Of a stretch of DNA of 44,111 bases, positions 8,501 through 44,111 are shown piece after piece (within the stretch, counting starts at the first letter, position 1; each line of letters begins with the position of its first letter). The DNA lies in contig NW_014577517.1 of assembly GCF_000485595.1 (NCBI RefSeq), forward strand, positions 179,557 to 223,667. The letters run 5' to 3'. A program made the position numbers and the translations under genes. The DNA comes from Priapulus caudatus. Lineage: Eukaryota > Priapulida > Priapulimorpha > Priapulimorphida > Priapulidae. The notes under the pieces were generated by a model. That model was given only the letters and a program-made list of their open reading frames with translations, searched no databases and was not told the origin of the DNA.

Positions 8501-8536
8501 CTTGAAACCCTACGACAGAAGCAGAAAAGGGACTAA
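5506..8536 (+). pseudogene. pol: reverse transcriptase, RNase H, integrase
   Basis: The order is RT (palm motif FVLVYIDDII near 6100-6130, LRTPYGLRNAPSAFQ before it), RNase H (LHCDASDYAIGAVLTQ, YSDHKPL) and integrase (HHCC zinc domain HLHAGH...CVTC at 7305-7425; catalytic core with Asp in SIDVVGP, Asp in LLTDRG and Glu in NGLCERFH; then a GPY/F-like KYWKPYFIIVQ). There are two clear lesions: TGA at 5800-5802 where a tryptophan codon is expected before RLCVDYRR, and a one-base frameshift near 6010 between QYEF and LRTPYG. From 6010 on, about 840 codons are open, so decay is modest. In life, Pol copies element RNA and inserts the DNA. The C-terminal ~90 residues are acidic and unrecognised. Confidence 0.93.
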
Positions 8537-10830: not shown

Positions 10831-11204
10831 TGATAGGGAGAAACATATTTGGGGAAGGGTTTCACGGCTTCGTTGACGAAGGCAGGTATAAGAGAGCTCG
10901 CGCGGAAGAAACGGGGCTCTCGTGTACTCACCCCTCTGTTGTGTTAAGTGATTATATGTGAATTTAAAACCAGTGTTCTACCCTGTGTTACTTGTGTGAA
11001 TTTCTGAAAACCTCTAGTCTACCCTGTGTGATTTGTACTGATTTTGTAAGTATTCAATAGTGAAACGGCAGTTTGTAATCCACATCAGTCTACTCTCATT
11101 TTATTATCACATTCGTAAGTTTAGTCAAGCAATTACACGGCGCATACATAGCACGCAAGCTATAGCGCACAGTCGTCTGGCAGCAGAATTACCCAGCGAC
11201 TACA
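10831..11204 (+). repeat. 3' LTR (visible part)
   Basis: This is a direct copy of 3002-3329, with the TATA-like box at 10887 and the same CCCAGCGACTACA end. It differs by scattered substitutions and by an insertion at about 10990-11035 that re-copies a CTACCCTGTGT segment. The divergence indicates an insertion that is not recent. Confidence 0.85.
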
Positions 11205-11638
11205 TTATAATTTCCATAAATCCATCCATAATTCCATTGTCCATGATTGCATTTTGCCGTGATTGTAATAAGTATTAAATTGAGGCTGTGTCATTATATG
11301 CACAATGCCTAATCTTATGTGTAGTGCTGAGTGCGCATTGCTAGGTATAGCGAGTAAAAAGAAATTGTAAATCTTGAATAATGGGTAATGCCCGCACGTC
11401 TGTTAGTTAAGGTCTAATTTACTTAAGGGTTCTTAGGTAATGTCGATTGAATAGCTTAATAATTACGTTGTATCATGTTTACCAGACATCAGCCCTTCAT
11501 GGTGCAGCCCTGGTTAGGAGCTATGTTAGTTGAGTGGCTGAGGAATGCGGCACAGTATACAGCATTCGTTTTTTTATGTTAGTGTTTTAGGACGACACTT
11601 GTTGACATCAAGTCAAGCAAGTTATTTTGCGGGGGGAG
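11205..11638 (+). other. probable 3' internal end of a second LTR element, with polypurine tract
   Basis: I see no coding sequence. The stretch ends in a purine tract (GCGGGGGGAG, 11629-11638) followed at once by TGATGTAACAGTGC, the arrangement seen at the start of 3' LTRs in many gypsy elements. Confidence 0.45.
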
Positions 11639-20315: not shown

Positions 20316-20890
20316 CCATGTTTAACCCTCCTCTTGAGGGTCAAAAGGTTATCCGACACTTACTCTTCGCATGTCAGCAGAAATACCATTTCATGCGTCC
20401 TTTTAATAAAGCCATAAAAAATGCTATGGTCACGCTGAAACAAAAAGTTTTCAATCGCTCCGTCAGACCATGTCCTCAGAAAATGTCTAAACTCTGCCCT
20501 GTGCCCCATTGACCGTTGACCTGTGACCTCCAATTTCGGCACCAGTGATGGTTTTTCCTACCTATGATGCCTATACACCGACTATCACGAGCGGCCTAAG
20601 GTCGAGCCGTTGATTTGTGCCGCATTCTGCATTTCTCCCTATCCTTAAGTTAAGGATGGAATGTTCGCCCTTCTTTTACACCTCTTGACCTTTGACGTTT
20701 TGACCCCCCAGCTTCGACATCCCAACTCGTTTTCGGATTACCCCACCACGTCCGACTTTTTCGAATCCATACGTCGAGCCGTTTAGATTTGTGCCCAACT
20801 GTTGAGGACGCACGCACGCACGCACGCACGCACGCTCATGCGATTCTACAAGCTGCATCTGACTATGTCAGATGAGCTAAAAACTAGAAA
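20316..20890. repeat. composite dispersed repeat, copy A (uninterrupted)
   Basis: Block 1 (about 20316-20655) matches 41070-41367 and block 2 (about 20656-20890) matches 42494-42740. Shared landmarks are TGTCCTCAGAAAATGT, TGACCTGTGACCT, CCTATCCTTAAGTTAAGG and CTTCGACATCC. The 3' part has a (GCAC)n tract at 20810-20833 and the conserved tail GCATCTGACTATGTCAGA. It is non-coding and of unknown class. Confidence 0.85.
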
Positions 20891-25150: not shown

Positions 25151-25160
25151 GTAGTGATCC
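25151..25160. repeat. left 10-bp target-site duplication
   Basis: GTAGTGATCC is identical to 43673-43682 and directly abuts the left terminal repeat. Confidence 0.9.
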
Positions 25161-25217
25161 TAACCTGTATGATACAGGCGGTTCCGGTTCCGCTTCAGCT
25201 CACTTCACCGCCTGTAC
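25161..25217. repeat. left terminal inverted repeat
   Basis: It begins TAACCTGTATGATACAGG, itself a palindrome around one base. A further ACAGGCGGT...ACCGCCTGT inverted pair lets the whole end fold into a larger hairpin. Confidence 0.9.
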
Positions 25218-25249
25218 CGCTTGCTTCTTCAGCCCGCTTCCCAAGAAAT

Positions 25250-25306
25250 GATTGCGCCCAATCAGAGAGCTGTAGCGGGATTACGTCACTACCGGTTAAA
25301 ATTAAA
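25250..25306 (+). promoter_or_regulatory. probable helicase promoter/leader
   Basis: GCCCAATCAG (CCAAT-box-like, 25255-25264) and a CRE half-like TTACGTCA (25281-25288) lie between the terminal repeat and the first ATG at 25307. No TATA box is seen. Confidence 0.35.
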
Positions 25307-25773
25307 ATGGCGACCATGGCGAAAGCTGTAAGCGATGTTGAGACAAAATATCACATTGAGTTCAAAACCTACCAAAAGACGGCAATTGAGTCAGTAGTGA
25401 ATGGCAAGGATACATTTGTTGTTCTTCCAACTGGCTACGGCAAGTCATACATATACTCGTTTCTGCCAGAAGTGTTCAATGGAGTGCTCGGACAGACCGA
25501 CTCGTCTTTGCTAGTTATCTCACCATTACAGTCATTGATGGTAGATCAGGTCAGAGCATTGACAGATTTCGGCATAAAAGCTACCTTTGTTGGCGAGATG
25601 CAGAACGATAGCAATGTTGACACTGAAATTGAGAAAGGACATTTTTCAATTGTTTTTGCATCCCCGGAGGCTGTACTGACGAGCACACGATGGCGAAGGG
25701 TGTTGACCAGAGGTAGATTTCAGCAGACTCTGAAGGCTGTAGCAGTAGACGAAGCACATTGTATTACGCAGTG
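25307..25773 (+). CDS. RecQ-like DNA helicase, exon 1
   Basis: The start at ATG 25307 is chosen because it opens MATMAKAV after AATTAAA and lies inside the element; a second in-frame ATG is at 25316. Residues 41-47 are PTGYGKS (Walker A), 71-74 ISPL (motif Ia), 118-121 ASPE and 148-151 DEAH (Walker B), ending CITQW. This is the N-terminal RecA-like lobe of a superfamily 2 RecQ-family 3'-5' helicase. The exon ends at a consensus donor, TG|GTAAGT. Splicing to 26366 restores WGADFR, the conserved RecQ junction. It probably acts in the nucleus to unwind transposon ends or replication intermediates (inference). There is no RecQ RQC winged-helix or HRDC domain in this exon. Confidence 0.92.
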
Positions 25774-26365
25774 GTAAGTTATATTACCGATAAAATTAAA
25801 TTAAATTCAGGTAATCTGTACATTTTTTAGGTATATATAAATTAATCTACAGATAACAAATATTGGTTTTAAAATGAAATATATACTAATTTTCTTGTGA
25901 GGTTTTTTAAATATATTTACAATACAATATGTATGTATGTGTGTGTGGTATGTATTTATGTTTGTATGTATGTATCTTTGTATACATGTGTATGTATGTA
26001 TTATATGTATGTATATCTATATTGATATGTGTGTATGTATGTACATGTATGTATGTATGCAAAGTTACTTCGCAAATTCATGAATATTTGTCACCTGTTT
26101 CTTAATTTATATAAATATTAAAATAATTAGTGATATCAACAATTTGATCGGGTTAAAACTAAAAAGTTTGCTACTAAAATTACTATTCTACTTGAATAAT
26201 GATCAACTCACATTTTGTCATTTGTGTCAGTTTTTCGATTCGTTGATAACTTAGTTTGAAATTTGTTATAATATAAAAGCATTGATTTAATAACTTAGTA
26301 ATGTGACGTATCAAGGTATATTTATATATATTATGTTTGATATGTTTTTATTGTTACTTTAACAG
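25774..26365 (+). other. helicase intron
   Basis: It is a GT...AG intron (GTAAGT to TTTAACAG) of 592 bp containing an (ATGT)n microsatellite at about 25927-26060. Confidence 0.9.
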
Positions 26366-27113
26366 GGGAGCCGACTTCCGCCAGGAATACGCTAGACTCA
26401 ACGAAATCCGCTCTGTGATCGCCAGTGACACTCCGTTCTTGGCCCTAACCGCTACAGCCACCGAGGGAATGAGGAAGGAGATCTTCAAATCACTACAAAT
26501 GTCATCCGACAGCACGACAGTGGCAATAATTCCGGAAAGGACCAACATCCGGTATACCTTCCAAAAGGTCAAGAAAGACATAGGACAGAATCTGTACTGG
26601 TTGGTTCAGGAGCTGCTGTCCAAATCAGACCCGTGCAAAGCCATCATATACTGTAGAAACATTGCATCATGTGCAGATTTGTACGAACACTTCATGCTTG
26701 CGCTGGGGGATAAGGCATTTACATCAAAGGAAAAGACTTTGCAGAGTCGTGTTGTGGGGATGTTCCATAGATCGACTTCGGATGCCAACAAGACACATAT
26801 CTTGGAGACCTTTGTTAAGGCCGATTCGCAGCTTAGAGTAGTTTTTGCCACGATAGCATTTGGCATGGGAGTAAACATCCCAGATGTAGATATTGTTGTG
26901 CATTGGGGTGCACCCAGGGGTGTAGAACAATTCGCACAGGAGTCTGGAAGAGCCGGTAGAGATGGCAGACAAGCAGACTCCATTGTCTACTACAATGGAT
27001 ATGACTTGAGATCGGGCAGCTCCACCAAGGAGGTGAGGGCTCTGTGTACAGGCGATACCTGTTCCCCAGGCGCTCTGTGCTACAGGCGATACCTGTTCCT
27101 CGGCAGTACATGA
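26366..27113 (+). CDS. RecQ-like DNA helicase, exon 2
   Basis: It continues from exon 1 with GADFRQEYARL, then FLALTATATEG (motif III), a second RecA lobe with KAIIYCRN (motif IV), VVFATIAFGMGVNIPDV (motif V), VVHWGAP and QESGRAGRDGR (motif VI, arginine fingers). All SF2/RecQ motifs are present, so the ATPase core reads intact. After about 27030 the frame runs through a 33-34-bp tandem duplication (ACAGGCGATACCTGTTCC at 27050 and again at 27083) and reaches TGA at 27111. The duplication adds a one-base shift, so the natural C-terminus is lost. A donor-like AG|GTGAGG at 27032 could alternatively end the exon there. Confidence 0.88.
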
Positions 27114-27349
27114 ACAAGTTACTTTAAACTGGAAGGTGTCAGTTCAACTTCCACTGATCTGAGTGAGGATGCAGATATCATCAATGACATCAAGTGCTGC
27201 ACATTGTGGCAAATCGGAAATTGTGAATGTGGTTCGTGCTTTACAGTCGCAGCACTTGTGCCGAGCAGTCACGAAATGCTCAGCTTGTTGTACCCGGAAG
27301 CTGGGAGTGAGTGCGAGATCTGTCCACCCAATCAGTGTCGGATTTACTA
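27114..27349 (+). pseudogene. helicase zinc-binding region, out of frame
   Basis: Beyond the stop, the sequence still encodes, in shifted frames, an RQYMN...YFKLEG segment and then KCCTLWQIGNCECGSC, spacing that resembles the four-cysteine RecQ zinc-binding subdomain. One or two small indels separate it from exon 2. It ends at TAA 27357 or a nearby stop. I infer the gene was inactivated recently or the assembly has indel errors here. Confidence 0.5.
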
Positions 27350-28419
27350 AGCAGCTAATTTAACTCGACTTCCGTATGTGTCTGTGCGAGGAAATGGTCA
27401 TTCCAACTCTTCGACAACCATTGATTTATGAACCCGGTTGAGTCGTGAAAGTTAGTGACAGTCGTGGTGAATCCTGCATGTTTTTTAATGTGCAGGATGA
27501 TGACATTGCGAGTCTTGGTCTCTGCTTCACATGAGCTTGGACTGGGGCACATATCTGAGAGAGAATCTCAATGAGTATACAGTGAGGATCTACATAGCCT
27601 CGTCATATCAGCGAGCTATTGCGACGCCCATCATTTCGTCGTGTAACGTCGTGTTCCAACCCTTCGGACGTATCGCGATGTTATAGCTAGCGTCTCGACG
27701 ACAACACCGGATAGAGCGATCTCGTGACCGTGTATTGCTCCTACGTAATAGAGACGAGAGCAGTTGGTTGACCGTCGCCCCTCATCAAATAGGGAAGTTA
27801 AGTTGTTACTATTCGCTACTCTGCAGGTTAGAGCGCGTTGTACACTGAATGGTCTCAGTACATTGAGTTAGAGGCACTTACACGCTACGATGACACATAC
27901 GTAAGCAGGTGAGTGCGTTATAGTCCTGCAACCCTCACGCGCTTAAGGGCGCCGACAATCCCTCATTGACGATCAGCTTTAACCACTCGTACCGTTTCAC
28001 CAGAACTCTCTGCGGTCGTGTATGACCGAGAGCTTATGGAGAGCGCAGACTACGCGGAATTTCTGAGACATCTGTACCATACTCTTATCTGACCTCCCTG
28101 TAGCCAAGGCTGCTGTAATGCACGACAACTTGTCCAGATTAGCTGTTATCGCAACGTTTCGAGACATTACACAGCTCTCTAATGGAGAGCGAGAGAGAGA
28201 AGCGACACCGCTACTTCTCTAGTTAAGCTGCGAGCTGTATTCGGATTATAGAAGTATATTTCCTGAATCTCACGTTCTCAGGATATTTCAGAGTATGTTA
28301 CATTAGACTCGAAAATTACTATTGGATACTCATAGCGTGTCTCTGAACCTTTACTGGTTTTTCTCTCTCTCTGTACCATGGCGTAATTTTATGCGTAAGG
28401 AACAATCCCCATCTTTTGG
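27350..28419. other. unrecognised sequence inside the large transposon
   Basis: No ORF, repeat or family is recognised. Base composition is more even and less patterned than elsewhere in the window, as it is through the nested element that follows. Confidence 0.4.
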
Positions 28420-28870
28420 TGTGAGATATTGATGTTATCGCTATTACTATGATGTATATTTACCGGTATAATATAGATTCTGTAAGATCGCGAGCCAGTA
28501 CGTGACGCACACGGTACCGAACAGACTAGCTAAGCCTCGGTTGTGGATAGTACTGATAATTTGCGACTAGAATTATCTGTCTCTCGGTCCCGAATACATT
28601 TGAAGTGGCCAATTTTTCGTTCAACATAGCAAAAATGGTTGACATCAGCTCTACACTTCGGCTTCTGGCATCGTGTGGACTAGCGGCACCCTATGTTTCT
28701 TGGAGGCTTGAGGGGGCAATAAATAAACATTGGCGGCGGGCTGCGTTTCGTGTTATCACACAGATCTGTCGAAGGCAGCTCTTGTGTGTCTAACCTTCAT
28801 TCCATATGTGTCACTAGATTACCACGCCCCACTGAACTGTATCTAAAGACCTCTCGTCAACATCAAAACA
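28420..28870 (+). repeat. candidate 5' LTR of nested gypsy element
   Basis: It starts TGTGAGATATTGATG and ends CATCAAAACA right before the primer-binding site. Similarity to 33571-33985 is patchy: GCATCGTG, GGCACCCTATG, GGGGGCAATAAATAAACAT. Confidence 0.45.
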
Positions 28871-28881
28871 TGGTGTCAGAA
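28871..28881 (+). other. primer-binding site (tRNA-Leu type)
   Basis: TGGTGTCAGAA directly follows ...AAAACA. This is the primer-site form common in Ty3/gypsy elements of marine invertebrates. Confidence 0.65.
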
Positions 28882-30153
28882 TAAACGATAAAGAGCATAG
28901 CCGCGCGTATGCTACAGGGAACTTATAGTAGCTTAGCAACCCAGTTGTGATAGTGCGCGCCCATGTTATGCTCAGTTTGCCAGCGTGGTTGCGTATGATG
29001 GTCAGTTATCAAGGGTGCAGATCGCGCGGCTAAATTGTTAGTGCTATGCTAACGACGCGCATCTCGGTTCTAGTGGCTTCTGTCGTGATACCTACTGTGC
29101 GTATTTTCGGATGAGCAGTTGACCTTTGATCTGACCCTATACCGCTCCTGGGCGGAACTTTACATCACGCTTCATGCCCTGGCCGGTTACGTAGTGACTA
29201 TGGCCACAAGTTCGCAAGTCCAACCCACCTGAGTGCATCTCGCACTGTTGAGCGACGCCGGAGAGGCTGTCGGTCACAAATGCTGCCATGCAGCAGAACG
29301 GAATGCCCTTTGCGTTGGAGTAGACATTCAGGACCACAGAGGGTCTAATTGCGTTGCTCAGAATATATCGGGAGCAAGCCAGTAACTTCAGAAGCGGTAG
29401 ACGACCCCTCATTTAACTCAATGGGTTGTATTGAAGCCGCAGGCGAGGACCGAGGTTTCTAATGAATGTCCTGAAGTCTAACGCGAGGAATATGCAAGAG
29501 GGACAATGGACTTATTCGAGCCTCACTAAAGACCGTTAAACTGGAGAGACTAATTTTGTACCGAAAGTAAGATACGTTCCTTTTGTAGACGCGTGCTGGC
29601 AAAACATATTTCAATCAACGTTTGCCCGAGTAAGGCACGGCGTGTATCCTAAGGTGGGAATCGCCTTTATCATCACCCGCAAGCTCTGTCACTCTTGCTG
29701 GGCCTATAACACGTGCATGTACTATCACTGGTTACACTGCACATGAGCAGGAAGTTTAACTCCGGTGTGGGGTTGCGGATAGGATTTCGGTGCTGCGCTG
29801 GAGGTATTAGTTTATTGGGTTAGACTTAAAGGACGGCAGAGTTGTCAGCACGGTCTGCAACTTGACGCAGACATTGTCGCTTAGAACCGCCATGGACAAG
29901 GCTCGCCAGAGCGAAACATTCGCAAGCAACAGGGCATCTCTGCGAGGGAGGCGGCTCCCCCATGCCGGCGGAGGTCGCAAAGTCGAGAAACGCACGAGAT
30001 GCCTCAATGGCGTCCCAAACGTCCACGCCTACACCGCCATACAGTGGTAGCAGTCAGAAGCAGTTTAGCCTAGAAGCAGCTGGGTAAGTCGTGCCCCAAA
30101 CTGTGGAACAACCGCCGCCATGAGAAAAAGCCGTGTTCCACAAAGGTGTAGAA

Positions 30154-33050
30154 TGCCATTTTTGCAAGAAAATTGGCCACTTCAAAATGTATTGCGAATT
30201 CGCAGATCGTCAGACGAGGTTCGGCTTCTGAGCAGCGTGACCCCTCATCGCTTTCATGGGAGACACTACAATCTCAACCAGAGGGGATCTTGTCGCTGGC
30301 AAAGCCGAAGTAAAGATAGCAGATCGTTCACGTGTGGAAAGATACGGCGTGCTGAGTTACGTGTATGCCATGAAAATGTACTCGCGAACGCTCACTATGG
30401 AAAGTGGCCCAGGCACTGCCAAGGTCTAGTTAAGGAGCTGCTGGTTCAAACTCGACGCTTCGGATTGTTCGTGAGAAAACTAGAAAGGTTCGCCGCGTCG
30501 CCGATAACCGACATCTACTGTGTGTCGTGGACCTTTACGAAAACCACTTCTTGCGATCAGCCATCAGAAACTCAATCTCGTGTCGTTAGTCAGTTCGTCA
30601 AGGGCAAAGCTACAAGTGGAAAAGTCAATTTCCAGAAGCTGTTTTCATCGCTTTTTGCGTAGATGAAGGGTGACTATGAGATAAAATCCGAGCGACAGTG
30701 CGCCGACCGTTACTCGCATCTCAACGCCACGTCGTGTCCTATACCCGCTGTACGCAGAAGTCAAGAAAGCCTCGTGCGCATGGAGGAGCATGGGAGTTAT
30801 TTCCAAGATAACCGCAGCCAAACATACTGCGTGTGCTGGGAATGGTTGTGGTTCCAAAACCACGAACTGTCAGGATCTGGCGTAGACCTGACGAAAGTTG
30901 AAGTGAAAGTGTGAAACGATGAGAAAACACATTCTACATCTGTGACACTACACTACGGTCGAAGTGGAGCAAAGGGTGTTCGAAACTCGACGCAACTCCG
31001 GGTTCTTGGCCAGTTGCCTCTAAGCAAGAATCGCTAGTCTGACCACGTTCATCACTGCCATTCGGGAGTTCTGGTTTTAATAGGGGGACTCCCTTGCGAA
31101 TCTCATCGGCGCCTGAGATATTCCAGCGCGAATGCCAGGACATTCTAGAGGGCTTTAGAGGGAGGTTTTGTGCTCATAGATGACTTCTGATCTTCGGAAA
31201 GGATCAAGGCGAACACGCATGGAAGACTCCACGGCTTGTTCTAAGTAGTCTGAGCAGCAGGCAGGTGTTACCCTGAATGAGCACAACGTGTTGAGTTTTC
31301 AGTCGATGACAATCAAGTACCTAGGTACTATTCAGTGTTTCATTTGTTTTTTGTTGTAGTTTTTTTTTTTTTTTTTTTCCGAAGAGCATTTAACGCAGAC
31401 CCAAAACAAGCGTCAAAGGCGTATACAGAGAGTGGAACGGCCAGGCTGAACATCACGGAGCTTAGACGTTTCCTAGGCAGATTGGGGGCTCAACCAGCTG
31501 GGGAAATTGTCCCTAACCTACGGACAGAACGGAGCCTCTCGCTCGTTACTACAGCGTGGAAAAATAGCCTGGCTCTTGGAGTTCAAGCTCAAGGAAACGT
31601 GGCTTTCATGGAACTGAAGGCATGCTCTCACGTACGACTGGTATTCTTGCGCTGTATGATCGGAGCAGAGACACGCTCGTCTCAGCTGGATCGTCGTCGT
31701 ATGGATTAGGAGCCGTCATAAGCAGAAACAGAGTGACAATGTGTGGAAACAATTAGCATACGGCGTCACGTTCATTGTCTGATACGAGAAACGGACGCCG
31801 CAGGGGAGAAAGAAGCGCCTAGCCTCAGCTGGGCTTCGCATAGGTTCTAAGAGTCATTTGATTGGAAAACATTTTACTCTAGAAACGGAACCATAGGCCG
31901 TTAGTGTCGTTCTTCGGGCTCAAAGCAGTTGGCTATGAGAACTCCCCGCACGAGTCCAACGCTAAACTCCGACCTATGATCCACGCTATACAGCTATTAT
32001 ACATGTTCCGTGCGGAAAGAAACTGTATACGCAGACGCCTTGTCGAGCGCGCCAGGTCTATTTTTCGCAAAACGTCTGAGGAAATATAGAACTCGCGCAG
32101 GATGTTCAAGCACTACGTGGCTTAATCGTGCAGAGTCTGCCTGCACCGCAAAAAACGTCTAGCTGAAATGTCGCAGAAAGCAGCGCAAGACGAAGTGTGC
32201 TGCCAAATCGTCAAATACTGCTCAAGATGGTGTGGCAGATAGATCATCGTCAATGGAGCTGTGTTTACGTTCTACCCAGTAGTAGGTGAACCTGACTGTT
32301 ATGGACGGGTTACTATAAGGGTACCTAGAAGTTAGTTCATACCCACAAGCATGCCGCTTAGAACTCTTGCGATAGATTCACGAAGGTCACCAGGGGATAA
32401 CTAAGTGTAGGACCGTCCGTGGCCCACAGGGAATCTGTGTGGTGGCAGCGACTGAGTTATTACAGTTCATGCAAACTTCTAGTGCAAAGCATTAACATTC
32501 TGTTGCAAAGAAACGTGTTTGTTCGCATGAGCGACATCACACCGAGGTTCCAAAAACGTCCTTTGGAGATCGTGGGTTACAGACTTGTTTGACTGAAGAG
32601 TGTCACTACCTTGTAGTACTCGATTACTTCTCCCGCTATATAGAACTCGCGAACTGTTGACGCAGCCTATCATCGGAAGCTATAGTCAACATCTTAAGTC
32701 GATCTTTGCGAGACATGGAGTCCAGAATGCGTCAGGTCCGACAACGCGACCACAGTATTCCGCAGAAGAATTCGGCAAGCTTCGCGGATACCTACAACTC
32801 ACGCATGCCACGAGTAGCCCGCGTATCCTCAAGGCCAATGCAGAGTAGCAAGGCCGTGCCAACGCTGAAGACCTGGCTGAAGAAGGCAAAAGCACCCATA
32901 CTCGCAGCTGCGTAAGCGTTACAGAGCCACAGCCTCTCTTTCAACGGGTACACGCCGGCAGAATGCTGCTTCGGAAGACGCGTGTGCGTACAACATCTTC
33001 CGGCAGCATCCGAACCAAACAAACCCCCGTTGGCCGATATGGACAAATCT
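30154..33050 (+). pseudogene. gag-pol remnants of the nested gypsy element
   Basis: Recognisable islands, in mixed frames: CCHC zinc knuckle CHFCKKIGHFKMYC (30154-30195, intact); a protease tail DIYCVVDLYEN (about 30510); a pre-RT linker and GMVVVPKP (about 30830-30860); an RT active-site remnant with IDD (31176-31184); GVTLNEH and KYLG (about 31266-31325); ADPKQ...NITELRRFLG (31390-31480); an RNase H start SSYGLGAVIS (about 31695); an integrase core with HYLVVLDYFSRYIEL (32598-32645), RPQYSAEEFGKL (32750-32785) and THATSSPR (32810); and a C-terminal TLKTWLKKA. Islands of 10-20 good codons are separated by frequent small shifts and substitutions. It is non-functional. Confidence 0.75.
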
Positions 33051-33570
33051 CGCTAGATGACAAACTAGAGTACCGCAAAAAGACGCGGAGAAACCGCTAT
33101 AGACGCCTAGTCACCGGTGCGAGAAACAACTCATGAACTGGGAAGGGAGACAATGTGCTGGGTTCGCTGATAAAGACGTCGCGCCTAAGCATCATTGCAC
33201 TCAAAGCGGAGACACCCGATCGCTATGTTGTAGAGACTCAATCTGGTCGTCCCTGAGACGAAACCGCCAGAAGCCTTGTGCAAGCTTAGCCCAGATCATT
33301 TGAGCAGGATTTCGTCGAAAAACCGGCCGATCGCGAAGTACATGTGAACACCCCGCAAGCAGTTGCGCCCATCCCAAACTCTTGGACTGTTAGTTCGCTT
33401 GAAACAGGACATTCCATCCCGGTGAATGAACTTCAACTGCCATGAGGACAGTATCAGGGAATGTACCGATGACGACAGCTCAAGCCTAGCCCCAGTATGT
33501 GACTAGGTCAGCAGAGTGTCCAAACCGTGGTGAGAAGCTAGCACTGGAACAATCTGTTTAGCCAGATAGG

Positions 33571-33985
33571 TGTGTAATGTTGAGAATTAGTGGTTCAAAA
33601 GATAGAGTTGATGTGTTTACAACTGATAAAGTGGTTGATGCGTTAGGTGGTACAATAGCATTCCCAATTGTTGCCAGCTATTATATATAATCTTGTCAGG
33701 AATGATCTATTGGATAATTGGGACTGTATGGGAATTCATATCTGCAAGAGCTGCCATTATTAGGTTTTTATTTCATCTCAAAGGGGCGAATGTTGTATTA
33801 TCATAATTATCTGTTCTGTGTCAACAAGTTATTCAGCACTGCATCATCGTGCTGCCACCTATGGACGGTTGAGGCGGAACTAAATAAAACATGGCTGGTT
33901 TCTGTTTACGCAAGGCTTTTAGCTGCCTACTCATTATTTGGTCTAATCTAACGCCCACAGATAAACCTCGCTGACTCAACAATAC
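33571..33985 (+). repeat. candidate 3' LTR of nested gypsy element
   Basis: It starts TGTGTAATGTTGAG and includes GCTGCCACCTATGGACGG and AACTAAATAAAACATGG. The right limit is estimated from similarity to the end of the 5' copy. Unlike that copy, it looks little damaged. Confidence 0.45.
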
Positions 33986-34439
33986 GTTAGACATTTTCCA
34001 TACCGCTATATATCTACAGTACTGCACAGTAACACAAATGCAATTTCTGGAAATAGTACATCTATATTAGTGCTTTTAGGAGGTATAGACAGATATTTGT
34101 TAAAACTATTCAAAGATAGATATACACATGTCTACTTAAGTCTGTCTACCTAAGGCACTTAAGGCTACTGATTTTCCATACGGACGTATTTATATGACAC
34201 TTTTAGAAAATGTGTTCTTAACAACACATTTAAGCTTTATCATATTTACAAATGTTACAGGTCAATAGTGTGATGACACCTCTACTAGATAAACACAACA
34301 TAACTATAAATTTCATGAAGAAAACGAAGTTAGAGCATGCTAAACATTAGGTAGACAGCAAATCTGTCTACCTAACAAATTTGTCTACATAACGGCTGGT
34401 TTTTTACACCCGGTGTCTACATATGGTGGGATTAAGATA

Positions 34440-34518
<79 letters not shown>

Positions 34519-34984
34519 AGAGAGAGAGAGGGGAGAAGAGTTATTAGTGACTGCGATATTTGAATTGATTCCCATGATGGTACATGTTTTACGTACAATG
34601 TATGTGTGTAGACATATGTCACAATTCCTGTATTGTGTTTCAACATGTGAGCTAAATACTAGAGAGAGAGATAATACAATATAATAATATACAATATACA
34701 TGTAAGATAATGACTACAAATTATAAATATACCCGATAGTGTTTTTCTCGCACCAAATCACAAACGATAATGTCACCCGGTAGAACGTATTTGCACCATA
34801 TCGCAACAAATCACAAACGATAATGTGGTACAATTAATATAAAATAATGCAAACATGCATAAAAAGTGACTAATGTGACACACAGTCAACCTGACACTAC
34901 ACAGTCAACCCGACATCTACACTACACAGTCAACTCGACACTACAAAGTCAACTCGATACTACAGTCAACTCAACATTATCTAC
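33986..34984. other. AT-rich non-coding region with microsatellites
   Basis: It contains (AT)n at about 34437-34474 and (GA)n at about 34481-34530. From 34880 there are irregular ACAGTCAAC(C/T)CGACAC repeats leading into the 57-bp minisatellite. No gene is seen. Confidence 0.7.
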
Positions 34985-35375
34985 ACTACACAGTTTTATC
35001 CACTCGACACTCGGTCAGCCAAACTTTATCTACACGTACACAACACACAGTTTTATTCACTCGACACTCAGTCAGCCAAACTTTATCTACACGTACACAA
35101 CACACAGTTTTATTCACTCGACACTCAGTCAGCTTTTATTCACTCGACACTCGGTCAGCCAAACTTTATCTACACGTACACAACACACAGTTTTATTCAC
35201 TCGACACTCGGTCAGCCAAACTTTATCTACACGTACACAACACACAGTTTTATCCACTCGACACTCGGTCAGCCAAACTTTATATACACGTACACAACAC
35301 ACAGTTTTATTCACTCGACACTCGGTCAGCCAAACTTTATCTACACGTACACAACACACAGTCAACCCGACACGA
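34985..35375. repeat. 57-bp minisatellite
   Basis: CAGTTTTAT begins units at 34991, 35048, 35105, 35188, 35245 and 35302, with exact 57-bp spacing except for one partial unit after 35105; a last unit starts at 35359 and diverges. The unit length equals 19 codons, so open frames persist on both strands, but this is a repeat, not a gene. Confidence 0.95.
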
Positions 35376-35391
35376 CATGGTCGATCTGGCA

Positions 35392-36588
35392 TTATTGGTA
35401 AGATCGCAATCGTTGAATGCGGGCACTCTGTTCTTTTTGCCTTGTTAGCCACAATCCTAGAGGACCTAGACTTTTCCCGTGAATATTGTCAAGTCTGCTG
35501 TAGGGCATATCTGGAAATGACTGGTGAAATCGTCCTGGTATTTGGGCAAATAGTGATTCACCCTTCATTTCTCGAACCAACAACTTGACATCGTTCTGGA
35601 TGGATGGTTTGTGGTGTTTAGGGGCGCCAAAGTAGACATCAAGTCCAGTTTTATATGCGTTCATAATTCGGTCGAGTGCTGACAAACTGCGTCCTGCTCT
35701 TCGGATAGACTTTGTGGTCAGATTGCCCCTCAAGGACGACAAAGCATCTTTGGCCACCATGTTCAAGAATTCAAGTGCAACGTCGCCAGGCACATTGCCA
35801 CCTGCCCCACCATGAATATTTATGCACCTGTTGTGCAGCATCTGGTGTTGCTGCCTGGCCGTCAATGTGGCAAGTAGCTGTGACTGCAGCCTAAACCCCA
35901 GTAACCGGTACTTTGTGTGGTTGTTTTGGTGATAGAGGAGCATATCAAAGCGCCACATCCGAGTTAGCCTGTGGCCATCGTTCTCCTCGGCTGCGTCCTC
36001 TCTCACCCAGTCCATCAGCCCTTCACGCAGCACATTGCAGGAATAATTGAATTTAAAGTCCTCCTTTGACGCTGTCGACTGGCCATCAGGAGTGTTTCGG
36101 GCCATGGGGGGGTCACACTGCTGTAGTTGTACATCCTGGTACAGGCACATGGCTCTATGTGTTTGTCGGCACTTCCCATCGATCGCAAAGTCCCGATGGC
36201 AGCCCGGAAATCCACACGGAACGCGACACGGCATGTTGGTCGCCATATCGGGTACTCCATCACCCTGATTTAGGAGGTCGTCGGGCGAAGTAGTCGTCGC
36301 CACGAAACTGTCAACAATTTCCAATGCAGTCTGCGCCAGAAAAGCCGCCTTCTCCTCATTGGATGCAAACTGCGCTGGACTGTCGTCGTCCAACGACTCC
36401 AGACCGAGCTTGTGAAGTGCCGATAGCAGAATAAAGCTGATGGTCACAAACCGGCTGAATTCCCGACAGTCGTTCACAGCATCTTTTACGATCGACTTCA
36501 CCCGTGTGCGCTCAAAGCGGTTGCGTAGTTGGAACAGTGTCCCCTTCTCGCCAGCTGACGACGTCTTGTAGTAGGAATTGAACAGATC
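35392..36588 (-). CDS. DUF6589-like transposon protein, last exon
   Basis: The acceptor is ATAATAG|GATCTG, with exon start at 36588 (phase 0) and stop TAA at 35394-35392, giving about 398 codons. The order from the start is DLFNSYYKTS, a helical segment, a zinc-finger-like CGFPGCHRDFAIDGKCRQTHRAMC, FKFNYSCNVLREGLM, MLLYHQNNHTKYRLLGFRLQSQL, RCINIHGGAGGNVPGDVALEF and SFPDMPYSRLDNIHGKSL. The YNY-like FNYSC, YHxNNHTKY and N.HGGxGxNxPxDxxLE blocks are the signature I know from DUF6589 proteins, abundant and multicopy in marine invertebrates and found in fungi. I infer transposase function from linkage to the terminal repeats. The stop lies about 17 bases from the 57-bp minisatellite. Confidence 0.85.
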   Translation of the reverse strand, partial: DLFNSYYKTSSAGEKGTLFQLRNRFERTRVKSIVKDAVNDCREFSRFVTISFILLSALHKLGLESLDDDSPAQFASNEEKAAFLAQTALEIVDSFVATTTSPDDLLNQGDGVPDMATNMPCRVPCGFPGCHRDFAIDGKCRQTHRAMCLYQDVQLQQCDPPMARNTPDGQSTASKEDFKFNYSCNVLREGLMDWVREDAAEENDGHRLTRMWRFDMLLYHQNNHTKYRLLGFRLQSQLLATLTARQQHQMLHNRCINIHGGAGGNVPGDVALEFLNMVAKDALSSLRGNLTTKSIRRAGRSLSALDRIMNAYKTGLDVYFGAPKHHKPSIQNDVKLLVREMKGESLFAQIPGRFHQSFPDMPYSRLDNIHGKSLGPLGLWLTRQKEQSARIQRLRSYQ

Positions 36589-37019
36589 CTATTATAAATA
36601 AAGAAATATTTATATTAGAAAAAGTTGAGTCACAAATGTGAGCATAGAAAATAAATTCAATATTACGATGAGAGTCAGGGGAATACATGTACTATGGATT
36701 AGTCTCCATTGTGGTAGTGCCATGGCCGCAGACACTTCTGATTGTTTTACGCGTTACAGCATTCGTCTAGCGAAAATGAGCAATTCTGGTTTTATGTATT
36801 AACAGAGTTTAAGATGGAGATTAACTGGCCATTAACGTTGCAAAGTTCTTAACCTGATTTAAAAATGAACAAATTCTGTTCATTTTATGCGATGTACAGG
36901 CGAAAGACTGGGAGATAACTATAAAATTGTATATATATATATATATATATACAGACTAACCCTATTTTAATTATAATTGTCGAGAAAGTCAAACATACAG
37001 TATTGACTATAGGCCTTAC
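36589..37019 (-). other. intron of the DUF6589-like gene
   Basis: On the minus strand it runs from CAG|GTAAGG to ATAATAG. It contains (AT)n at 36931-36951. Confidence 0.8.
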
Positions 37020-37274
37020 CTGTAGAGCGAGAACATGGCCATGCCAGTCTTCGCTGTGGGCAACTAGTCCATCCAGGCGATCCTCGGGTGTGATGCCATC
37101 AGCTCTGGCTCGTTGCGATCCAACCGCACGCTCGACACTCAGGCCATCTCCCCCCAGCAGGAGCGGCTTCATCACATCATCAGCCGTTCTCGGGACATAC
37201 TGCTGGAGGTGGGTCATGATGTCTATCATCTGCTCTGTTATATTCTCGTCCTTCTCCATAATGCCCAGAGGGAC
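37020..37274 (-). CDS. DUF6589-like gene, internal exon with GGD motif
   Basis: The exon runs from ATTACAG|GTCCCT to CTACAG|GTAAGG, 85 codons, phase 0 at both ends. It encodes VPLGIMEKDE, then MKPLLLGGDGLSVERAVGSQR and LVAHSEDWHGH. The GGDxLxVxRxxxxQ and EDWH blocks are the best conserved part of DUF6589 proteins and probably carry acidic catalytic residues of an RNase H-like fold (inference). It joins in frame to the exons on both sides. Confidence 0.88.
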
Positions 37275-37905
37275 CTGTAATATAAACATGCAATTTTTTA
37301 AATTAAAAAAAATTAAATATCACTGGTTAATAGATTTATATGGTAAACATCCTAATAATTTGTAGAGTAAAAATAAATTCTTCAAACTTGGGAGTGTGTG
37401 AATAATTAAGCCAACATGCAAATACATTACCATAATTTTATTATGAGTGTATTAATTATTAGGATATTTACTGTGATTTCCTTCCCCCCACACACACACA
37501 ATGTGCAGATCAATCATAAATTATTATTACATTTAAACACCCCTCCCGCCCATAGTGTGCAGAACTGCAGTTCATGAAAAATATAGTAATTGTGTCTATT
37601 AAGCCACATTGATACAGACAAATAGAAAAATTAAACAAATAAAATTTTTTCAACAAATTACAAACGGCCTATTCAGACTAGTGATTTAAAAATAATTTGT
37701 GACCATGTAAAAATTATTATGGAGATGTTAATATGTTGAACACTAAATAATTTTGTTAACAATTGAAAATTCAGATTTAACTGTGGCAATCAAGAAAGTG
37801 TCTGCAAGTGGCTGTGACACCGTGTAGAGTGTCAAGTGCATGATTCGTTGATGGATACACCTAAAAAGTAATTTATACATGTTCATGTGTGTAAAGCAAA
37901 CTCAC
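37275..37905 (-). other. intron of the DUF6589-like gene
   Basis: The donor is AATGTG|GTGAGT on the minus strand and the acceptor is ATTACAG at 37275. The rest is AT-rich, with nothing else seen. Confidence 0.75.
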
Positions 37906-38115
37906 CACATTGCTCTTTCTCTTGGACTGCTCTGAATACTCATGTGGGATGTGGTCAGTCACAAGGTGCTTGATGTCGTGAAACATTTTCATGTGCTCTG
38001 TGAGGACGCGCTGAATCAAGACCCGCATATCTTCTCTCAGAAGCCGATGATCTTCAGCTGAAGGTAGGAAGGCAGAGTTTGGAATGTAGTGTGGATATAT
38101 CCTTCGCGTGATATT
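37906..38115 (-). CDS. DUF6589-like gene, internal exon
   Basis: Seventy codons in phase 0, ending AGCAATGTG|GTGAGT. The encoded part includes LPSAEDHRLLREDMRVLIQR, MKMFHDIKHLVTDHIPHEYSE and RKSN. The REDMRVL and VxDHIPHxYS blocks precede the GGD exon in DUF6589 proteins. The acceptor (GATGACAG) has a poor pyrimidine tract, but in-frame stops upstream require a splice here. Together with the two downstream exons it gives about 553 continuous codons. Confidence 0.75.
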
Positions 38116-39072
38116 CTGTCATCAAGTGTTCACACCATACACCGTTCCGGGACAGCTATGGAATGTACCAAGTTGTGCTACTTTTGTTGACTGTCATGTT
38201 TTGAGCAACATGCTGAACAGTTCACAAATTTGTCGTATACAATTCGAATCCAGGGAACCAGTGCTGGTGGTGAGTGCTTCCTTTATAGTCCGTTGTGACG
38301 TATCACAGTCCTGTCTAATCCCCTATCACTACACCTATCTCCCGGCTATAAGCACAACATCGAGTCTACAGATGTCTCATGATAGAGTCAGTCAGTGTCT
38401 GCTTGTGCTGGATTCCGCTCGAGCTGATGATGCCCATCCATTCAAAGGCAGCCGACGTTTCTGCCTTGTTTGGCTACTCCGCAACAGGTGATTGCGACCC
38501 TCTCAATGTCACTGGCGGGGTGCGCCATACTGGATTTGACTCGGACTCAGCGAGAGTCGGCTGTGTGGGTCGAACATCACACGCTTGGGTGTCGCTATGG
38601 TTGGGTTGATGACACGACTGCATAATCATGTATCATGTGACCGTTGCCGAATCTAGCTTGGATGCTGGTGATCGGCGCCCTGTCCGCCAGACAGATGCTT
38701 TCACTTTACTTGTCATCAATCCTCCCTACTTTGTCATACTCTGTCAAGTAGATTGTGCACAGGCCATCCGCCCTCGTTGAAGGATCTGTACACGCGGAGC
38801 CTTCTGACGTGTCCATTGATAGAACGAGCTGTCACCAGGCCTGTAGTGGTGTATGCTGCTGATTTTCTTGTAAACAACAGATTGGCCGGGCGGACCAATC
38901 TCTGGCGCGACGACATGTTTCCCACACTTGTGTCACATTCAGCACTATTAGTTGGTGTCGCGGTTTTTCAGGTAGTCAATGAGACTTGTGGCCCAGTCAA
39001 AGTCGTTCTCGTTAGCCAATATTTGTAAAGACGCAAGGATTTTTAGCTTTGGTCGCCACAGCCCTTGGCATT
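38116..39072 (-). other. probable intron or decayed coding stretch of the DUF6589-like gene
   Basis: Short minus-strand frames exist (for example after 39072, a frame with LWRPKLKILASLQILANEND and DWATSLIDYLKNRDT, ending near 38965), suggesting remnants of the missing middle of the protein. I could not assemble a continuous frame or confident splice sites. Confidence 0.35.
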
Positions 39073-39282
39073 CTAGTAACATTGCTTTTCGAAAAACTGA
39101 CTGACGATGTGTGCTGTCGGTAGATTCAGATAGTGGTGACAGCCTGTCTGAATTGTCTCATCCAAGGCACGTGATTTTTCCACATGTTTCCTTGCTGATG
39201 AGAGACCCGGGTTCTGCACTTGAAAGGAATCTCCACCTGAAATTATAATATAAAACCAAACATTAGTATCAGACAAAAATAA
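39073..39282 (-). CDS. candidate upstream exon of the DUF6589-like gene
   Basis: It begins after a good acceptor (ATTATAATTTCAG) at 39282 and is open for about 69 codons (SARKHVEKSRALDET, HHYLNLPTAHIVSQFFEK) to TAG. A coding-looking frame continues in another phase just beyond, so a small indel may have broken it. The phase does not match the donor of the first exon, so another exon or a lesion lies between. Tentative. Confidence 0.35.
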   Translation of the reverse strand, partial: LFLSDTNVWFYIIISGGDSFQVQNPGLSSARKHVEKSRALDETIQTGCHHYLNLPTAHIVSQFFEKQCY

Positions 39283-41069
39283 TTTAGTTAAAATAGGAGG
39301 GGGTAGGGTCACGTAGCGGATCGCTACAGTAATGAGGGATCGTCTAGTGTGATTCTGCTACACTATTGTACAATTATGATATATTTAGTATTATTGAATT
39401 TTAAGAAATAAACGTGTGTACACGTATGCATGCATACACACAGTCTATACAGCTTCTTTTTTTAAATTTTATTTTAATGAAAATGTTACAAAATTTAGTG
39501 AAAAATATATCGATTTTTAATTTTAAAACAAATGAAGAAAAAAAATTTGGGTCGGGCCGTATTTGGTAGGTAGGGTCGGGTTCGGAACACATCATTTTTT
39601 AGCCTATATGTATGTCATGATAAAAGTTAAAAATGTATGCGCACATGCCACAGTGCCTGCCCCGCATTATATAGTATGTATATTTCCAAAGGAGGAGGTG
39701 GGCAAAGTGACAAAATAAACTCAGCCTATTCCAGTAGGGGCGGGTGGCTGAGCATAGCAGTCTATTTGTTATAATCAATTTGTTGTTCAATACTTGTTAC
39801 ATACTCATTCCTGTCTTTCATTTATAGTAAATACTAATAGTATCATTTTATATGTTAATGTTATGTCATTATGATCTTCATTATAACAAGAGCGCAGAGG
39901 TCTGGCTCATCTGGGTTGTTTGCTACGTTATGACGTACAATTTCAGTGCTTGTGCGTCGTAGCTGACACATTTGTAGGCGCAGATATGCAGTACGCAGTT
40001 GGTACACATCATTGTCGTAGGACACGCATCACTATCCCCCCATGCGAATTTTGGTTTATTTTATTAAATGATATGCCTTTGACGTGTCGAATGTGTGGTC
40101 GTGATTCACAGCTATTTCTATTTTATCTATCTATAAAGATTTCACATGTGAGCTGGATTCAAGTTATAAATGCGGGGGCGGGGAGTCTTCTTCCCACCTC
40201 CCTCCCTCCTCGCCTCCCCTGCTTCGCTCCCTCCCCTCTGTGTCGCCTCCACCTCCATTCCCTTGCCACACCATCTCGCACGACCTAATTGTTGAACCCC
40301 GTTTCCCGCCTCGATACACACGCCCGTCTATCACCGTTTTCCTGGCCCCGTCTCACTTCTCCTCTCTTCTTCTTATCTATATAAAATTACCAGCGATGAT
40401 GCTTTTACTGCCCTCATAATGCTATTCTTCCTATGCCCCTGAGGTGGTACAGTTCATAAATCATTATATATATAGTCTCTATATTTCTAATGATACGCTT
40501 TATGTCGCCACAACTCGGTATATGGATACCGACGCTGCATTGCCCATGTTATGGTTAAGATTCAGATGCAAGAGGTATTATCTTATATATTATATGGTAC
40601 TAGTTTTATTTTATTCGCATTGAACAAGTTAATGAGATAAAGTCTATTTAACTAGCTTGTTCCCGCCGAGATGCGCGTGCAAGTTGTAGTATGATAATCA
40701 AGATGCAGCGTTCCTGGAATCTAGAGTAGTACATGTAATGCAGTAAGTATATTAGCGTTGCCTCGCTGTGAGTTAACAGTGCATTGCAGAGTGCAGGCAA
40801 CACATTATGTTAGAGCCGTTGACAGCCATGGGGCTGCCTGTGTTTTTGCTCTGCGAGCATTTCACTGATTCGATCATTTAGCTTCAGCCCAGGGGCAGGG
40901 TTGCGCCTATAGACATGCTTTTAGGAAACATCATAGCTTTAAGGAAGCTTAAACCATTGTTCAACCTCATTTGCCTTGTGCAAATTTCTAAACTGTGCAC
41001 TTAGGGCGCACTTGACAAGTATGCGCTCTCTAATAGCAAGCAGTTCAGTCTTTGTACGTCAACATTCAA
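39283..41069. other. non-coding, large intron of the right-hand gene
   Basis: No exon is recognised. A CT-rich tract lies at 40185-40260. It is otherwise AT-rich. Confidence 0.5.
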
Positions 41070-41367
41070 GTTTACCCTTCTTGAGGTGTCAAAGGTTTTC
41101 ACACTTACTCTTGCATGTCAGTGGAAAGCATTTTCATGGTGCCTTTCAATAAAAGTTGTTCCAATCGTCTCCGTCCCCCTGTCCTCAGAAAATGTTTCTA
41201 AATTCTGACCTGTGCCATGACCTTTTGACCTGTGACCTACAATTCGGCACCAGTGGATGGCTTTTACCTACCATTTATGTATACACCGGACTTCACGCTC
41301 ATAGGTCGAGCCGTTTTAGGATTTGTTTGCGCAATTCTGCGTTTCCGCCCTATCCTTAAGTTAAGGC
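41070..41367. repeat. dispersed repeat, copy B, block 1
   Basis: It matches 20316-20655 (GTCCTCAGAAAATGTTTC, TGACCTGTGACCTACAATT, TCGAGCCGTTTT, CCTATCCTTAAGTTAAGG). Confidence 0.85.
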
Positions 41368-42493
41368 TACTCTCCGTTAGTGCATGAAATTTCATCGAAT
41401 TTTTCTGTTTTCACTTATTCGATGAGCATCCACTATGTGCCGCCTGTGTACATGCTAATTTATCCATTTAAACGTTACATGTAACTGTACAGAGGTTTTG
41501 TGCTTACCCGTCGTACATGTGTAGTAAGCAGCGGCTGACGTTCATGATGTCGAGCGGACATGATTACACCACGATAGTAACTAACTCCAAGTATCAGTAA
41601 GCGTCAACCCTGGCGTACGCTTCATTGCATGTATTCATTACATTATGTACATCTGTAGTGATTGCTAACAAGGCATCCGCCAAATAGTTCTAAACCCGAA
41701 CACACCTTGCAACACAGCGCAGTACATGCTGTGCGTTGTGACTATTAGCTTCTGTTGACGTCAGGATGACGTTGAGTTCGCGCGTTTTGCCTCGATTGTG
41801 TAACCTCGTAATTCTCAGAATGTTCTCAGGGTGCATGATGAATTTTACATTTAGTGGATGTCAGTTAGTCATGGTATGTCGCGTAAACTAAATAGATTTT
41901 TACATTGACGTTCACCCATTTTCGCACACAGCGCGGTCACTCATTGTGAAATAGAAAACGTTATTTCTCCGTTTCGATTTCTGCATGTACGATGTATAAT
42001 GAATTTCTTCTGTGATTCAACTCGATTAATTTATTTTCACTTGTTTTAATGGTAACATTTGTGTGTAAAAAGTGCCCTGGTCAGGGATTGTATTAAGTGC
42101 TGCTATTTTATTAGTCTGGCTTCTTTATTCGCTAAGATTTCAATTTTTAAAACAACTGATTTTTAAGCGTTTTTTGCAGCTTTTCTCCGGTAATATAGAA
42201 AATTCAAGAAATCCTGACGCACCTATTCGTGGTTCCATATTGTGACTTAACAGTGCGCCGAAATTTTGTTCCTCAACTCTTTCTGGTAATCGAGAAATAT
42301 CAAAATACATTTTGACATAATTCAAATTTGTGTGGCGTACTAATTACGGTGCTTGAATTTCTGAAATTTTTTGGCTGAGCAGAGTATATCTTCTCGTATA
42401 ATACAAAAAGTGATTGATTCGATTCGATTCCGCCAATAAACGTTTAATCTTCACTAGAGCATGATACGTGCACAACGTGGACACTATCTTAGC
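41368..42493. other. ~1.1-kb insertion splitting repeat copy B
   Basis: This sequence is absent between blocks 1 and 2 in copy A. It has no recognised coding region. No terminal repeats or target duplication are obvious, so its nature is open. Confidence 0.55.
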
Positions 42494-42740
42494 GAGGTGA
42501 ATGTCCTCTCTTTTCGTAACCTCTTGACTTTGACCTTTGCCCCAGGCTTCGACATCCACATCGCGTTTTTCGGATTACCCCCCAATTGTCCCGAATATCG
42601 TGACCGTACGTCGAGCGGTTAAGATTTGTGCCCAACTGTTGACGGACGGACGGACGGACGGACGGACAGACGGACGCTCGGACGGACGGACGATCATGCG
42701 ATTCTACAAGCTGCATCTGACTATGTCAGACGAGCTAAAA
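42494..42740. repeat. dispersed repeat, copy B, block 2
   Basis: It matches 20656-20890, with (GGAC)n at 42640-42692 in place of (GCAC)n and the same tail GATTCTACAAGCTGCATC and GACTATGTCAGA. Confidence 0.9.
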
Positions 42741-42800
42741 ATTGTATTTGACTTTTTTTTATCGAAGTTTATATATATATATACTTTGGAAAGTACTTAC

Positions 42801-43421
42801 CGATACTGGGCTGGTATGTGACTTTGAGGTCTGGGGGGTCTGTGACTTGGGGGTCTTGTGGGTCGCACTCGGAACTTGAGGACTGGTGAATAACCCCTTC
42901 CTACGACTAGCTTTCCCATTTTTTTGGCCAACATCATGATGTAGAGCGGTGACATAATTCTTTTTAGATGCTGGTGTCAATCCTGTCTTCAAAGGCGTCA
43001 ATGCCGATCTAGATCTTTTCTTGTGTGACTTGTCCGGAGTGCGTACTTGAACTTGCATGGGGCTGGGGGGTACCTGTTCATTTTGGACGTTTTCTTCGTC
43101 ACACAGATTACTCAACACACCTCCCGGTACCCTCCGGGCCCTAATCGTACTCAACAGGTTAATTGCTTTATCCCTTGCCGACGCGTGCTGCTTGATAAGA
43201 TTGTTACAATTTGCACAGATGAATAGAGTGTCTACATTGTTTGGTGATTGCAACGTATTTAGCAGTGATTCACGATCAGTGTTCAGCACAATCGCCAACT
43301 CATTCAATATGAATATATCAAAGCCGCCTTGAACTGAAAATATATTCCGCCTGCGCTCGTTTTTCAAATTGTACAAATTGAAATGATGATTACAATATAC
43401 ACAATTGTCGCCGCAAGCCAT
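42801..43421 (-). CDS. N-terminal exon of the right-hand (DUF6589-like) gene
   Basis: ATG at 43421-43419 opens MACGDNCVYCNHHF, then FICANCNNLIKQH: two Cys pairs (CxxxCxxC and CxxC) that form a zinc-ribbon-like domain over residues 3-80. The rest, to about residue 207, is basic and Pro/Ser/Thr-rich (SHKKRSRSALTPLKTG, PKSQTPQTSKSHTSPV), a probable disordered nuclear-localisation segment. It ends at donor TCG|GTAAGT (42801/42800). The start lies about 200 bp inside the right terminal repeat and reads inward, mirroring the helicase at the other end. Zn-ribbon N-termini of this kind precede DUF6589 domains in related proteins, so I assign it to that gene; the linking exons are not all found. Confidence 0.65.
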
Positions 43422-43616
43422 AAGGTTCGACACAATGACAATTAATCAATTTTTCCGGAATGTTCCAACTATACTCGCCCACTACACACAACCATGTACA
43501 ACGCATAACGTTAGTTACTATGGTTACAAAAATACCACCAGCAACGTCATTTCCGGTTAGCCTCGTTCTGAGTTTAATCGGTAACGAGGCTTGCGAAACG
43601 CCAGGGTTCATCTCGC

Positions 43617-43672
43617 GTACAGGCGGTTAGTGTAGTGAAGCGGAACCGGAACCGCCTGTATCATACAGGTTA
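43617..43672. repeat. right terminal inverted repeat
   Basis: It is the inverse of the left repeat: the outermost 37 bases are identical, then GTAC...GCGGT continues with small differences. Confidence 0.9.
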
Positions 43673-43682
43673 GTAGTGATCC
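43673..43682. repeat. right 10-bp target-site duplication
   Basis: GTAGTGATCC is identical to 25151-25160. Confidence 0.9.
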
Positions 43683-44111
43683 ATATATATATATATCGCT
43701 ATATAAGCAGTGTATATAGCGTAGTGGCGCCATCTATCGGCGGAAAAAATCGTCTTTTATTGCTGACCATGCTCTCTATCCTTGAGCCACTATGGCCCTA
43801 CCTACTGCACAAGCACTTGGAACGTCTCAATAAAAAAAAATAATGGTAAATAAACACGAAATGTATTTACTACCAAAGTCTTAACGTTTCTCTACTCGAT
43901 TTCGCCTATAATCACCTGTAAATGCCAGTCAAATGCTCATCTGCAATACACAAGTACACCGCACGCCCGCCATGTGCACAAACAACATGAATGAGAGCAG
44001 GAAGGAAAGCAGGATCGAAAAATTTGTTCGTTGCTCGCTTCATTTCACACCTTCACGAATCACAGCACGAATACACATCCAACAGCTTCCATCTTGGTAT
44101 CTATGTGTACA
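43683..44111. other. flank of the large transposon
   Basis: Short (AT)n, then the phrase GTGGCGCCATCTATCGGCGG. No gene is seen. Confidence 0.5.

Follow-up and report, generated by a model that had tools for sequence, protein, structure and literature searches.

An 18.5-kb helicase-bearing DNA transposon in Priapulus caudatus, very likely of the AcademH kind, with a DUF6589 protein as its probable transposase

A stretch of 44,111 nucleotides from Priapulus caudatus (RefSeq assembly GCF_000485595.1, contig NW_014577517.1, positions 179,557 to 223,667), here called the window, holds a gene for a RecQ-like helicase and a gene for a DUF6589 protein between inverted sequences some 18.5 kb apart. 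The locus raises the question of whether these parts belong to one transposon and, if they do, to which kind it belongs and which protein would move it. A sequence-only reading had proposed a single, complete and very large element of the AcademH kind, bounded to the base. In our assessment, the locus is in all likelihood a transposon of that kind, with a DUF6589 transposase, a helicase as its helper, short end-only copies (miniature inverted-repeat transposable elements, MITEs) moved in trans, and a fossil copy in the window. What is chiefly new is the probable role of DUF6589 as the transposase.

Ends, flanking duplications and short copies

The element occupies positions 25161-43672 (18,512 bp) and is bounded by inverted ends, both of which were delimited by self-comparison and recur in the genome: a left terminal inverted repeat (25161-25217, forward strand) that starts with TAACCTGTATGATACAGG and a right one (43617-43672, reverse strand) that ends with CCTGTATCATACAGGTTA. 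Their outermost bases are identical at 37 out of 37 positions, and the inverted alignment of 25160-25217 with 43673-43617 shows 93% identity over 59 columns (BLASTN). The same 10 bp, GTAGTGATCC, stand on either side without a mismatch (25151-25160 and 43673-43682). The sequence-only reading had described inverted ends of about 57 bp with 37 identical outer bases, a perfect 10-bp target duplication and a single element between them, all of which these comparisons support. As C25160 and G43673 are complementary, the element alone would equally permit a longer repeat and a duplication of 8 bp. We place the ends at TAACC...GGTTA because the short copies point there, which gives the 18.5-kb element a 10-bp duplication; the claim that it is bounded to the base holds, yet it is the other copies that settle the bounds. 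In the 385-Mb assembly that was searched, the window is G000:C457:179557-223667, contig C457 stopping with it at 223,667, and the element is found with a 100% match from G000:C457:204707 onward.

Searches with the left and the right 250 bp of the element returned at least 61 and at least 72 match rows, respectively. The 18.5-kb element is in each set of rows, and a short copy is often represented by both its ends; since 40 candidates were scored out of 73 (left) and out of 87 (right), the rows give lower bounds on the loci. The terminal repeats recur elsewhere as pairs with different duplications, one of the checks that had been proposed: at 38 of 51 further loci, they face each other. The 39 pairings that we kept have their ends 95-444 bp apart, many about 280-310 bp, and many of these copies have some 119 bp from the left end and 96 bp from the right. 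They are non-coding MITEs, of which the P. caudatus genome holds dozens.

Duplications were scored in 40 copies with the ends set at TAACC...GGTTA, namely the 39 short pairings and the 18.5-kb element (the outer pairings of the nested copies L011 and L053 were excluded). A perfect duplication is seen in 24 of them, of 9 bp in 21 copies and of 10 bp in three, the 18.5-kb element included. In the control, mismatched pairs of flanks agreed over 9 bp or more in 3 out of 1558 cases, all three from related loci (the two copies of L011, L028 with L054, and L041 with L023). The element family makes 9-bp duplications and, less often, 10-bp duplications. The 21 perfect 9-bp duplications represent 20 different sites, of which 13 begin with G and four with C. 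One site is shared by L024 and L025 (G000:C179:51599 and 56017), short copies 4.4 kb apart; because their flanks are identical, they probably stem from a local duplication and not from two insertions. At L011 (G000:C157:607119-607516), two short copies are adjacent and their own 9-bp duplications overlap, as if one had entered the flank of the other.

The left flank of the 18.5-kb element belongs to a low-copy repeat, which on contigs C281 and C97 crosses the insertion site (AGTGATCC and AGTGGTCC) into GCTATCCCTTGAA without the element; a third copy, on C220, diverges earlier. Beyond the right end, the left-flank repeat does not continue; its place is taken by an AT run and a different dispersed repeat, and GTAGTGATCC is absent at all nine other places of this right-flank repeat that were read. 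Because of the uninterrupted passage at C281 and C97 and the lack of GTAGTGATCC at those nine places, the right-hand GTAGTGATCC would be the duplicate made by the insertion. The right-flank repeat (43683-43850), with its variable AT run, begins exactly at the right duplication. The junction of the two flanking repeats coincides exactly with the duplication; their pre-insertion junction was not found elsewhere in the genome.

Each terminal repeat also holds internally a ACAGGCGG motif together with its inverted partner, which in the left repeat are situated at 25172-25183 (forward strand) and 25206-25217 (reverse strand). The pattern ATACAGGCGGTT, with up to two mismatches, has eight sites in the window against 2.75 expected, and four of the eight fall within the ends of the element. 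Motifs of the ACAGGCGG type are likely candidates for transposase-binding sites.

The two genes and their relatives

Pfam searches bear out that a RecQ-like helicase gene and a DUF6589 gene point inward from opposite ends. The helicase reads on the forward strand from the left end (DEAD, E 4.6e-17; Helicase_C, E 2.9e-16). Its first exon (25307-25773) encodes the DEAD domain (PF00270) with the P-loop and DEAH boxes and ends at a splice donor, and its second (26366-27110) encodes Helicase_C, as placed by Pfam and by the alignment of relatives. The protein is 100% identical to the P. caudatus record “ATP-dependent DNA helicase Q-like SIM” (P0029), which also supports the first exon, and the solved structures nearest to it in sequence are BLM, WRN and RecQ chains. 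An in-frame TGA (27111-27113) closes the second exon directly after a short tandem duplication (27036-27099), while similarity to the Mytilus protein P0030, including its cysteine cluster, extends beyond this stop to about 27239. A second Priapulus helicase piece (P0040; on a contig of 36,695 bp), 70% identical over half of the query, points to a further, diverged copy.

The protein at the right end reads on the reverse strand and has DUF6589 (PF20231, E 2.3e-15) as its sole assigned Pfam family; it is 100% identical to P. caudatus LOC106810602 (P0001). Three exons are supported by P0001, by relatives and by an open frame: the first (42798-43421), which starts with MACGDNCVYC and contains CxxC pairs, one with HIPHEYSEQSKRKSNV (37906-38115), and one with a conserved GGD motif that holds the probable second catalytic aspartate (37020-37274). 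The last exon (35392-36588; 398 aa with a stop) is open as well, matches P0001 at 100% and carries the PF20231 match. Some Mytilus relatives of this protein are named ZAD domain proteins in their records. A 66-bp exon at 39171-39236 occurs in the NCBI model P0001 only and is doubtful, being absent from the alignment of relatives. Between the first exon and position 38115, the gene is damaged: residues 558-603 of the Mytilus protein P0002, including the conserved aspartate of an MDN motif, the probable first catalytic one, align to 38255-38121 across two in-frame stops.

Four acidic residues are conserved among the DUF6589 proteins (numbered as in P0002, with the alignment rows that have a letter at the position as the denominator): D565 in 24/26, D716 in 26/26, E957 in 23/25 and E1028 in 20/22. 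They would be fit for a DDD/E core, which we consider probable.

P0001 and P0029 are both listed on a Priapulus contig of 232,245 bp; the assembly behind these records may differ in letters from the one searched for ends. Among the matches listed, the nearest relatives of both proteins are from Mytilus and Branchiostoma, and at least seven of 35 contigs with a DUF6589 gene, told apart and matched by their lengths, also bear a helicase gene (37 DUF6589 proteins set against at least 120 helicases). These are the contigs of Priapulus, of M. coruscus (1035051, 1508358 and 318152 bp), of M. edulis (665986 bp), of M. californianus (117871512 bp, where the genes have adjacent numbers, LOC127709853/127709854) and of B. 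lanceolatum (20012688 bp). The linked Mytilus and Branchiostoma proteins are 36-52% (DUF6589) and 45-50% (helicase) identical to those of Priapulus; the ends and duplications that were read are those of Priapulus. Over six of the seven pairs (the M. coruscus pair on the 318152-bp contig was left out), the identities of the two proteins correlate with an r of 0.89 (15 comparisons). In a helicase tree of 35 rows, Priapulus groups with nine Mytilus helicases (support 100/99), and all the linked helicases are separated from bacterial RecQ at 100/100, with 23 unlabelled rows also on the non-bacterial side; the Branchiostoma helicases have no supported placement within the Priapulus-Mytilus group of this tree.

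Classification and proposed mode of movement

AcademH elements have terminal inverted repeats and a helicase of superfamily 2; the group, part of the Academ superfamily, was reportedly described by Kojima in 2020 in a paper whose title names animals and fungi. According to the literature, cited here from excerpts, AcademH carries a helicase and makes duplications of 9 or 10 bp, those of AcademX are 3 or 4 bp long, and the length of the duplication is suggested to be related to the encoded helicase or nuclease (PMC10045372). The Priapulus element resembles AcademH, as excerpted, in the length of its duplications, in carrying its own helicase (with DEAD and Helicase_C domains and RecQ-family chains as the nearest solved structures) and in its animal host (PMC10045372, PMC10799480). 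It differs in its host phylum, Priapulida, and in its 18.5 kb; curated Academ elements from bivalves, all kinds taken together, have a mean length of 5,565 bp in the text available (PMC10294476). Duplications, helicase and inverted ends make it very likely that the element, which is set beside AcademH by description, is a member of that group, as the sequence-only reading had suggested. A literature search for P. caudatus and transposons revealed no such element in titles or the openings of abstracts.

The element would move as follows. The DUF6589 protein, as a probable DDD/E transposase, would bind the ACAGGCGG-type motifs, of which each end contains an inverted pair, excise the element at TAACC/GGTTA and insert it at cuts staggered by 9 or 10 bp, the filling-in of which would produce the flanking duplication. 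The RecQ-like helicase would assist by unwinding either the ends or the DNA at the repair gap, and intact relatives would mobilise the end-only MITEs in trans, the window copy being a fossil that probably encodes no working proteins. A broader proposal, which we favour with some reserve, is that DUF6589 is the catalytic transposase of AcademH-type elements in priapulids, molluscs and lancelets, co-inherited as a unit with the RecQ-like helicase, and that the helicase may set the stagger of 9-10 bp, which is unusually long.

Two host genes could have come to lie between unrelated short repeats, with two MITEs for ends and a duplication by chance, in a genome where MITEs with such ends are common and in an interior that is mostly non-coding. 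This is scarcely credible given that the two ends, 18.5 kb apart, share a perfect 10-bp duplication, a length that mismatched flanks attained or approached (9 bp or more) in related loci only (3/1558); in addition, the two genes also occur together on contigs of other animals, and in a second long copy, on contig C1643, DUF6589 sequence likewise lies to the same side of a right end. We rejected a Helitron, since Helitrons have neither inverted ends nor a target duplication and both are present. KolobokH, the Kolobok type that encodes a RecQ helicase, would, like the Priapulus element, be a helicase-bearing DNA transposon, and a rhodophyte Kolobok has its helicase on the complementary strand (PMC9587614, in excerpt), much as the Priapulus helicase runs from the end opposite the DUF6589 gene and on the opposite strand. 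Kolobok, however, duplicates the 4-bp TTAA (same excerpt), while the Priapulus copies have varied duplications of 9 or 10 bp, and a TTAA duplication is found neither at the element nor at its copies; we rejected KolobokH as highly improbable.

A separate superfamily, with a DUF6589 transposase and a helicase, might resemble AcademH in duplication length only. Pfam states no function for DUF6589, our literature search found no paper on it, and the comparison with AcademH was made by description and not with an Academ transposase, all of which would suit such a superfamily. We nevertheless consider it unlikely, the title of the AcademH paper naming, as mentioned, both animals and fungi. In the excerpts available, moreover, a helicase together with duplications of 9 or 10 bp is the stated combination for AcademH (PMC10045372), and bivalves, the source of the closest relatives, are reported to be rich in Academ (PMC10294476).

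Several observations weigh against an AcademH-type transposon driven by DUF6589. Single ends occur at 13 of the 51 further loci (a second look revealed a weak second end at one or more of them), and 16 of the 40 scored copies have no perfect 9- or 10-bp duplication, five of them missing it by one mismatch. The search for empty sites, another check that had been proposed, yielded the element-free left-flank repeat at C281 and C97 and no full empty site, the right flank differing from the continuation there. Among the matches listed, 28 of the 35 DUF6589 contigs (one contig per cluster) are without a helicase; co-occurrence on chromosome-sized sequences, such as the 20 Mb of B. lanceolatum, is weak evidence of linkage, and the six correlated pairs are non-independent, one pair at 94%/94% weighing heavily. 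A sequence search of solved structures, up to an E of 1, gave no match to DUF6589; both structure models of it are poor (mean pLDDT 49.5 and 52.7), and fold searches with these two gave nothing usable. Finally, the damage in both genes is bypassed by splicing in the NCBI models P0001 and P0029, the latter avoiding the helicase stop, and the window copy may yield a shortened product.

In a phylum remote from the commonly studied models, the locus fixes to the base the ends and the duplication of a helicase-bearing transposon and can serve as a reference for them, and it ties a Pfam family of unassigned function to a probable transposase. The members of the MITE family record the choice of the enzyme between 9 and 10 bp, and the Mytilus gene pairs would allow the relation of duplication length to the encoded helicase or nuclease to be tested.

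Decay, interior and neighbouring elements

In the window copy, the two genes seem to be broken by stops and other damage, while the ends are complete; the completeness claimed in the sequence-only reading applies to the ends and not to the genes, even if the NCBI models bypass the damage. The second long copy (G000:C1643:38725-42996) comprises the right end and DUF6589 sequence 82.7% identical to window positions 37433-39216; no left end was found within the 44 kb read (649 N included). Residues 558-676 of P0002 align to it free of stops, and residues 205-389 with one stop; where the window has two in-frame stops (38121-38255), this copy has none. Over 1,958 aligned columns (82% identity), its open frames reach 265 and 222 residues, with none above 81 in the window copy, and its middle DUF6589 exons are largely readable.

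The coding parts of the element are confined to some 2 kb at the left and some 8 kb at the right. In between (27400-34801), a search in six frames with stops read as X detected no Pfam family, a retrotransposon-type RNase H-like match at 31568-31756 (E 0.0097) being below the cut-off; it hints at an old retrotransposon. Tandem arrays adjoin the 3′ end of the DUF6589 gene (34880-35362), with 57-bp units from about 34988 and shorter ones before. A dispersed repeat (41151-42741) is nested in the large first DUF6589 intron, and its blocks 41151-41366 and 42499-42741 match window positions 20443-20883 at about 78-80%. Because the middle is non-coding, a repeat is nested within, and bivalve Academ elements have the much smaller mean given above, the extra length is best read as filler plus a nested repeat of the window copy and not as cargo; the very large size put forward in the sequence-only reading need not be a trait of the family.

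Two other mobile elements were noticed to the left of the transposon. An open frame of 440 aa at 14360-15682 encodes a piggyBac-type transposase (DDE_Tnp_1_7, E 2.2e-64), around which a scan for inverted repeats gave no clear ends. Farther left, direct repeats (3002-3331 and 10831-11206; 87-92% identical) enclose a 901-aa open reading frame for reverse transcriptase, RNase H and integrase (5831-8536), and the segment 3002-11206 is a probable Gypsy long terminal repeat retrotransposon.

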